64,000 bases of DNA from Roseobacter insulae. GTDB lineage: Bacteria > Pseudomonadota > Alphaproteobacteria > Rhodobacterales > Rhodobacteraceae. Shown here in pieces: positions 37,586-41,650 of the stretch. The stretch covers positions 372,001-436,000 of the forward strand of contig NZ_JAHXDN010000002.1 in the NCBI RefSeq assembly GCF_019375555.1, read 5' to 3'. Below the pieces are notes generated by a model that was not told where the DNA came from, ran no database searches, and worked only from the letters and a program-made list of their open reading frames with translations. Position 1 is the first letter of the stretch, and each line of letters begins with the position of its first letter. The position numbers and the translations under genes are program-made.

Positions 37586-39544
37586 ATGAGCCTGCCACCC
37601 GGATTTCTTGACGAATTGCGCACCCGAAGCAGCCTGTCTCAGGTGGTTGGGCGCAAGGTCATGTGGGACCAGCGCAAATCCAATCAGGGCAAGGGCGACA
37701 TGTGGGCACCATGCCCCTTCCATCAGGAAAAATCCGCCAGCTTCCATGTCGATGACCGCAAGGGATTTTATTACTGCTTTGGCTGTCATGCGAAGGGTGA
37801 TGCGATTTCCTTTGTCCGGGAAACCGAAAACGTGGGGTTCATGGAGGCGGTGGAAATCCTTGCGCGCGAAGCAGGCATGCCAATGCCGGAGCGCGATCCG
37901 CAGGCGCAGCAGAAGGCGGACAAACGCAGCCAGTTGGCCGAGGTCATGGAACAGGCGGTCAGGTTTTTTCGCCTGCAGTTGAATACGGGTGCTGCCGTCG
38001 ATGCCCGTGGATATCTCGAGCGCCGGGGCCTGGATGCCGCGGCGCTGGAGCGTTGGGAGATCGGCTTTGCCCCCGACCAGTGGCAGGCGCTTTGGGACCA
38101 CCTCAAAGCAAAGAACGTGGAAGACCAGCTGATCCTCGAGGCCGGTTTGGCCAAGCCATCCAGCAAGGGTGGCAAACCCTATGATACTTTTCGCGGGCGG
38201 ATCATGTACCCGATCCGCGATGCACGGGGGCGGGCGATTGCCTTCGGGGGCCGTGCGATGGACCCCAATGACAACGCCAAGTATCTGAATTCGCCGGAAA
38301 CCGAGCTTTTTGACAAGGGGCGCAGCCTTTACAATCAGGGACCTGCGCGGACTGCTGCGGGCAAGGGCAAGCCGCTGATCGTGGCCGAGGGTTACATGGA
38401 CGTGATCGCGCTGGCCTCGGCCGGATTCGAAGCAAGCGTCGCCCCGCTGGGCACCGCCATCACCGAAAACCAGCTGCAGATGCTGTGGCGCATCGCGCCG
38501 GAACCGATCATCGCGCTGGATGGCGATACTGCCGGTCTGCGCGCCGCCATGCGGCTGATCGATCTGGCCTTGCCGTTGCTGGAGGCGGGACAGTCCCTGC
38601 GGTTCGCGATCATGCCCGCCGGAAAGGACCCTGATGACCTGCTGCGCGAACAGGGTGCAGCGGCGCTGCAGAAGCTGCTGGATGACGCCATGCCAATGGT
38701 GCGGTTGCTCTGGCAGCGCGAGACCGAAGGCCGGGTCTTTGACAGCCCGGAGCGCAAGGCGGCCTTGGACAAAACACTGCGCGACAAGATCATGACGATC
38801 AGGGATGCGTCAATTCGAAGCCACTACGGACAGGAGATCAAGGATCTGCGCTGGCAGCTGTTCCGACCGCAACGCACGCCGGGTCGCCCGGCGCGATCGG
38901 GCGGACAGGGGCGGTGGCAAAAGGCGCCGGCGTCGGCACTGCCAACGACCAAATCGTCGCTGCTGGCGAGCACGGATAGCGCCGGAAGCGCGGAACATCT
39001 GCGCGAAGCGGTCATTCTTGCAGCGCTGGTGACCTGTCCGGATGTGATCGAGGGTTTTGAGTCCGGTATCGAGCAAATGCGCTGCACCGACCCGTTCCAC
39101 AGCGATTTACGCCGGCTTTTGCTGCAGAACATGCATATTGATGCAGACGGGCTGAAAACCCGTCTTTCCGATGCTTTGGGCGCAGAAGCACTTGAAAACC
39201 TGCTGTCGCAGCGCCATGTCGCGATTGTGCCCTGTATTCGCGCGCCGGGTGATCAGGACAAGGCACGCATGACAGTTGCCGAAGAACTAGCAAAACTACA
39301 TAGCGCCCGAGGGCTGGATGCGGAGATTGCCGAGGCCGTCGAAGACCTCGATGGTGTTGCTGACGAAGGCCTGACATGGCGATTGTCCGAGGCGGCAAAA
39401 GCCGCGGACCTTGCGCGACGCAGCGGCCAGGAGGACAAGGCAGAATACGATCTGGGCGAAAACGGCGCGCGAATCAGTCGGGATGAGCGCAGCGCTCTGG
39501 ACGCGTTACTTGATGCCATTAAGCATCAGAAACCGCGCGGTTAA
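37586..39544 (+). CDS. dnaG: DNA primase DnaG
   Basis: DnaG makes RNA primers for replication. It has 652 residues. The zinc-binding domain has CHC2 ligands Cys43, His46, Cys64, Cys67 (CPFH...YCFGC), followed by the Toprim core with Glu268 in VAEGYMDVI, and ALDGDTAGLRAAM for the DxD. A C-terminal helicase-interaction region (about 450-650) contains QKLLDDAMP earlier and the Ala/Asp-rich end. The start ATG has no strong Shine-Dalgarno, although a TATATA element is only about 10 bp upstream, so it may be nearly leaderless. rpoD follows after 123 bp. Confidence 0.96.
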   Translation: MSLPPGFLDELRTRSSLSQVVGRKVMWDQRKSNQGKGDMWAPCPFHQEKSASFHVDDRKGFYYCFGCHAKGDAISFVRETENVGFMEAVEILAREAGMPMPERDPQAQQKADKRSQLAEVMEQAVRFFRLQLNTGAAVDARGYLERRGLDAAALERWEIGFAPDQWQALWDHLKAKNVEDQLILEAGLAKPSSKGGKPYDTFRGRIMYPIRDARGRAIAFGGRAMDPNDNAKYLNSPETELFDKGRSLYNQGPARTAAGKGKPLIVAEGYMDVIALASAGFEASVAPLGTAITENQLQMLWRIAPEPIIALDGDTAGLRAAMRLIDLALPLLEAGQSLRFAIMPAGKDPDDLLREQGAAALQKLLDDAMPMVRLLWQRETEGRVFDSPERKAALDKTLRDKIMTIRDASIRSHYGQEIKDLRWQLFRPQRTPGRPARSGGQGRWQKAPASALPTTKSSLLASTDSAGSAEHLREAVILAALVTCPDVIEGFESGIEQMRCTDPFHSDLRRLLLQNMHIDADGLKTRLSDALGAEALENLLSQRHVAIVPCIRAPGDQDKARMTVAEELAKLHSARGLDAEIAEAVEDLDGVADEGLTWRLSEAAKAADLARRSGQEDKAEYDLGENGARISRDERSALDALLDAIKHQKPRG

Positions 39545-39592
39545 CCATTTTTGAACGGGAAACCCGCAGAAAAAGAAGGTAAACGGGTGGCC

Positions 39593-39643
39593 GAATCACC
39601 CAAAAACGCTAGATGATTCCCAAGTGATTCGGGCGAGCGAATC
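39593..39643. promoter_or_regulatory. Cluster of four GANTC sites (CcrM methylation sites) upstream of rpoD
   Basis: GAATC (39593-39597), GATTC (39615-39619), GATTC (39626-39630) and GAATC (39639-39643) lie within 51 bp of the rpoD leader. The last two form an inverted pair TGATTC-N8-GAATCA. GANTC is the target of the alphaproteobacterial methyltransferase CcrM. By composition, one site per roughly 280 bp is expected. Confidence 0.6.
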
Positions 39644-39667
39644 AATGGGACCGCTGAGGAGCAGTGC

Positions 39668-41650
<1,983 letters not shown>

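Follow-up and report, generated by a model that had tools for sequence, protein, structure and literature searches.

A conserved array of GANTC methylation sites in the rpoD leader of Rhodobacteraceae, a candidate target of CcrM and GcrA

Methylation-dependent promoters that are read by GcrA are already known in the Caulobacterales. At methylated promoters, GcrA recruits the sigma70 polymerase, as described in a review (PMC7403470), and TGATTCG, more broadly YGAKTCK, has been reported as its activation motif in Caulobacter, while the GcrA-activated genes of Brevundimonas showed no extension of the motif beyond GANTC (PMC7987155). According to PMC4287350, a GANTC between the -10 and -35 positions goes with S-phase activation in Caulobacter, the site of ctrA P1 lies at -28/-29, and 11 of 96 cell-cycle starts carry more than one GANTC. 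In the Rhodobacteraceae, the CcrM of Paracoccus aminophilus methylates GANTC (PMC3925955). A survey of the Rhodobacterales found GANTC in only 45% of ctrA promoters, and suggested a minor rather than a major role for methylation in this order because these promoters often lack the site (PMC8116508). As for rpoD itself, the Brucella abortus promoter is bound by CtrA, as cited in PMC2877005.

The rpoD leader of Roseobacter insulae resembles the GcrA/CcrM promoters of Caulobacter crescentus (ctrA P1, mipZ, podJ P2) in having GANTC near a promoter core, which is tentative here, in its extended motif TGATTCG, and in that both CcrM and GcrA are encoded. It differs in that the target is rpoD itself, in another clade, and in that Rhodobacteraceae leaders have at least three sites with a preferred spacing, compared with mostly one site in C. 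crescentus. The Caulobacter ftsZ and mipZ promoters are likewise core-gene promoters with a GANTC conserved among relatives; their activation by methylation was proven with mutants and reporters, whereas for rpoD such activation is predicted from sequence comparison. Conservation spans four relatives for ftsZ/mipZ and about 100 genera for the rpoD leader, and the conserved motifs are CGACTC and TGATTCG, respectively (PMC3708114). No earlier report of rpoD as a conserved CcrM/GcrA target was found in the open-access literature searched, which is not proof of novelty, and the conserved leader array is not described in those of the open-access papers that mention both GANTC and rpoD.

A GANTC cluster between dnaG and rpoD

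The window, that is the whole stretch of DNA analysed, comprises 64,000 nt of Roseobacter insulae contig NZ_JAHXDN010000002.1 (positions 372,001–436,000 of the forward strand, assembly GCF_019375555.1), and contains dnaG and rpoD in tandem. The original prediction placed four GANTC sites in 51 bp upstream of rpoD, two of them as an inverted pair, and both observations were borne out. The four sites (39593–39643) lie 25–75 bp upstream of the rpoD ATG, within the 123-bp gap between the dnaG stop (39544) and this start codon (Table 1). Relative to F0, which is the anchor site of the family, the additional forward site begins at +11 and R2 at +24. The extended motif TGATTCG is found at three of the four sites on either strand; the exception, TGATTCC, is at F0, where the family consensus is TGATTCG. 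The copies at 39625–39631 and 39638–39644 form an inverted repeat of 7 bp without mismatch, separated by 6 bp. A further flanking GANTC is present at 39713, inside rpoD; neither this site nor the one at 39471 (Table 1) was part of the original prediction.

Table 1. Features at the dnaG–rpoD junction of Roseobacter insulae, in window coordinates
Feature	Position	Strand	Evidence
dnaG, DNA primase, directly preceding rpoD; serves as the coding control in site-density comparisons	37586..39544	+	NCBIfam TIGR01391 above cut-off
Outlying CGAATCA at the dnaG 3' end; array membership uncertain	39471..39475	-	sequence; putative
A-rich stretch AGAAAAAGAA, possible UP element (putative function)	39568..39577	+	sequence and family column table
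GTAAACGGGTGGCC, conserved block adjoining R1 on its upstream side, where the -35 region would lie (putative role)	39579..39592	+	
Site R1, GANTC in CGAATCA (39592-39598), TGATTCG on the - strand	39593..39597	-	GAATC in 19/19 same-genus genomes
GCTAGAT, tentative weak -10, overlaps the F0 motif start (putative)	39608..39614	+	family consensus GCTAWT, -6 to -1
Site F0, GANTC in TGATTCC (39614-39620), 22 bp after R1	39615..39619	+	18/19 same-genus genomes
Additional site F1, GANTC in TGATTCG (39625-39631)	39626..39630	+	19/19 same-genus genomes
Site R2, GANTC in CGAATCA (39638-39644)	39639..39643	-	same-genus genomes: 18 GAATC, 1 GATTC
rpoD, primary sigma factor, 660 aa	39668..41650	+	NCBIfam NF004208 above cut-off, E 2.6e-275

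Across the whole window, GANTC is about fivefold below the level predicted from dinucleotide composition, with 55 sites seen and 262.5 expected (mean of dinucleotide shuffles). Its density is 0.85–1.08 per kb over 1.25 Mb of the Roseobacter insulae genome, and about 1.55 per kb when only intergenic sequence is counted. The one site in 280 bp assumed in the original prediction was thus about right for composition (one in 244) but not for the real background (one in 1164), and the cluster is therefore rarer than had been assumed. When the 55 sites were placed randomly within the window, four of them fell within 51 bp in 0.05% of trials. Simulation at the intergenic GANTC rate, over the whole intergenic DNA of the genome, gave such a cluster in ~4% of runs, a probability that speaks in favour of chance or base composition as its origin. 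In the 1.25 Mb examined of the 4.88-Mb genome, the only cluster of four in 51 bp is that in the rpoD leader, and a pattern search for GAATC-N8..24-TGATTC-N4..24-GAATC returned one match in the whole genome, also at this leader.

Some occurrences of these motifs at other places were noted. Intergenic TGATTCG is found only a few times in the 1.25 Mb; the gene that starts ~220 bp from one copy (L199, contig C13, ~156881) encodes an apparent quorum-sensing regulator of the LuxR type. One genome of the family, G102, an assembly of 870 contigs, matches the array pattern 20 times, compared with 0–3 times in the others, and its contig C223 (1018–1668) contains repeated GAATCACC..GGTGATTCG units at ~145-bp spacing.

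Conservation of the array across Rhodobacteraceae

The proposal that the sites be compared among rpoD leaders of Rhodobacteraceae was followed using 110 genomes of the family, in essence one per genus. At least three GANTC sites were found within 150 bp of the rpoD ATG in 98 of the 110 genera, so that the sites are conserved, and at least two in 104 leaders; one genome that scored zero (G042) nevertheless has the cluster further upstream. Genera bearing the array include Ruegeria, Sulfitobacter, Phaeobacter, Cereibacter, Paracoccus, Salipiger and Mameliella. The site density is 24.1 per kb in the rpoD leaders and 1.2 per kb in the dnaG coding DNA of the same 110 genomes. At least two sites within 75 bp are present in 106 of the 110 leaders, compared with the 45% of ctrA promoters having a site in the earlier survey (PMC8116508), which covered the same order with the same kind of upstream site count. 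Among 20 genera examined over 20 kb each (400 kb in total), 19 have three or more sites within 75 bp at rpoD, and only three such clusters were found elsewhere.

No comparable cluster was found in the rpoD leaders of 28 genomes from other alphaproteobacterial families, and the array is therefore a trait of the Rhodobacteraceae. In one of the genomes from other families (G147), three sites do fall within 75 bp, but they are situated over 300 bp upstream and are arranged differently. The rpoD leader of the deep branch Rubrimonas (G083) is without the cluster.

Within the genus, the fixed letters of the GANTC sites are 98.7% pairwise identical among 19 genomes, compared with 73.8% for the rest of the leader. 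In one of these genomes GAATC has changed to GATTC at R2, and the methylation site is therefore kept. Conservation of the cluster removes chance as its explanation: 98 of the 110 genera have it in this position, with a preferred spacing, and within the genus it is kept against diverged flanks, and we regard an origin by chance or base composition as hardly credible.

The arrangement of the sites is also recurrent. Among 70 pairs of R1 and F0 spaced 18–26 bp apart, the distance is 21 bp in 51 and 22 bp in 13. Family leaders may have an optional forward site 13 bp before F0, and a peak of reverse sites is found 13–15 bp after it; in part of the family, spacing and orientation vary (FFF types). 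TGATTCG is matched exactly by 272 of 414 leader sites and by 6 of 100 coding sites (odds ratio 30). By sequence comparison, a dense, oriented array of fixed spacing, made up mostly of TGATTCG, is thus kept in nearly all Rhodobacteraceae leaders while the surrounding DNA diverges.

The flanks of F0 (T 92%, G 94%) are nearly as conserved as GANTC, and the constrained unit is therefore 7 bp long. This would be expected if a methylation-independent regulator bound TGATTCG in the leader, the GANTC inside it being incidental. However, flips in orientation and changes in the flanks keep GANTC, as in the 41 leader sites reading CGAATCG, the 30 reading CGATTCG and the same-genus substitution at R2; the 7-mer is the same as the motif already reported for GcrA; and GANTC is strongly avoided genome-wide. 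Such a regulator is accordingly given a low probability.

A role in the leader transcript was considered as well, in which RNA hairpins with alternative stems (R1:F0 and F0:R2) would control translation or termination. The sequence at 39625–39644 forms a perfect 7-bp hairpin and the last 53 nt fold more stably than shuffled sequences (z -2.8), but the full leader does not stand out (z -0.55), nor do three homologous leaders (z 0.35, 1.43 and 0.50). Leaders whose sites all point the same way (FFF, FFFF; for example in Cereibacter) cannot pair, yet keep the sites. With homologue z-scores near zero and pairing broken in same-sense arrays, RNA secondary structure was rejected as the conserved feature, and control through hairpins appears very improbable.

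Promoter elements and candidate readers of the array

In its layout the leader looks like a promoter preceded by an A-rich element, in which weak -35 and -10 elements and the placement of the core promoter are putative. An A-rich block is conserved from -47 to -41 relative to F0 across the family (A 45–91%), and a block resembling GTAAACGGGTGGC stands directly before R1 in family leaders; GGTAAACGGG is present in 21 of 110 leaders and in none of 110 control stretches. The four bases preceding F0 tend to TA(A/T)T in the family, and GCTA was found in 15 of 50 leaders. TTG at -26, considered as a -35 element, was found in none of 50 leaders, and therefore no clear -35 is claimed. A promoter scan found no consensus sigma70 promoter in the rpoD leader, as is expected of an activator-dependent promoter. 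If the tentative -10 is right, the position of R1 would be comparable to that of the Caulobacter sites between -10 and -35.

A CtrA site in the leader was rejected: TTAA-N7-TTAA is found in none of the 110 rpoD leaders and TTAACCAT in only 2 of the 110. The copy of TTAACCAT in Roseobacter insulae, which we take to resemble a CtrA-type octamer, is at 39541–39548, where it overlaps the dnaG stop codon, and is the only one in the window; it is kept in much of the genus, yet is present in only those two genera. The Brucella abortus rpoD promoter (cited in PMC2877005) offers a parallel, in that a cell-cycle master regulator, in the present case a proposed one, acts on an alphaproteobacterial rpoD, but both the regulator and the site are different.

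The link to CcrM made in the original prediction is well supported by sequence, in that CcrM and GcrA homologues are encoded, the sites are conserved family-wide and the extended motif is present. The prediction took no account of GcrA, its extended motif, the spacing of the sites or the avoidance of GANTC across the genome. The CcrM homologue of Roseobacter insulae aligns near end-to-end with Caulobacter CcrM (6PBD, E 9.8e-165) and has a RAMA domain over the cut-off; with the NCBIfam CcrM model it scores 633.7 bits, under the cut-off of 830. The GcrA homologue is over the cut-off for Pfam GcrA and aligns with 7YE1 in both the N-terminal DNA-binding and the C-terminal sigma-binding parts, scoring 164.5 bits with the NCBIfam GcrA equivalog, under the cut-off of 280. 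Pfam GcrA was found in 120 of 120 Rhodobacteraceae genomes, and genomes with leaders lacking the cluster (G008, G017, G029) still encode it. Since GcrA is present in every genome of the family tested, gain or loss of the sites cannot be tied to gain or loss of GcrA.

Taken together, the conserved and uniquely arranged sites suggest that rpoD is switched on through the CcrM/GcrA cell-cycle methylation system, and we consider it probable that the leader is a sigma70 promoter at which GcrA reads an array of CcrM methylation sites. CcrM would methylate the GANTC sites of the leader, and the N-terminal domain of GcrA would bind the methylated TGATTCG sites, while holding RNA polymerase via domain 2 of sigma70. 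GcrA would then raise open-complex formation at a promoter whose -35 and -10 elements are weak. Methylation could instead act without GcrA, if N6-methyladenine in the -10 or spacer altered melting, or blocked or admitted another methyl-sensitive protein. F0 overlaps the tentative -10 region, and the Caulobacter ftsZ and mipZ promoters require GANTC methylation for full activity (PMC3708114), but why TGATTCG is so strongly preferred to other forms of GANTC, and why at least three spaced sites form an array, would be left unexplained, and we think this mechanism unlikely.

Cell-cycle timing and meaning for the family

With GcrA as the reader, passage of the replication fork could leave the sites hemimethylated, and output from rpoD might then change through the cell cycle, as is possible also for the synthesis of the primary sigma factor tracking replication state. 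In 14 genomes of the family with long chromosome contigs, the distance between rpoD and dnaA was 0.01–0.81 of a replichore, the middle half being 0.48–0.63. The gene tends to lie at mid-replichore (median 0.60 from dnaA), apart from exceptions such as G101 (0.01). The distance of rpoD from the origin thus varies among genera, and a role in timing is therefore no more than possible. The data are matched equally well by an activator site that depends on methylation but shows no strong swing over the cell cycle.

Synthesis of sigma70 driven by sigma70 together with its own methyl-reading cofactor would constitute a feedback loop. We tentatively propose, as a reading open to considerable doubt, that rpoD is a flagship CcrM/GcrA target of the Rhodobacteraceae, with a self-driven promoter methylated at several sites, by which total transcription capacity would be coupled to methylation state and therefore to chromosome replication.

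As a conserved candidate target present in nearly every genus, the rpoD leader argues strongly against the minor role suggested for methylation in the Rhodobacterales (PMC8116508). This candidate target encodes the partner protein of GcrA, which suggests feedback between a sigma factor and its cofactor. The leader offers a single, well-defined promoter for testing what CcrM and GcrA do in a large family of marine and photosynthetic bacteria.
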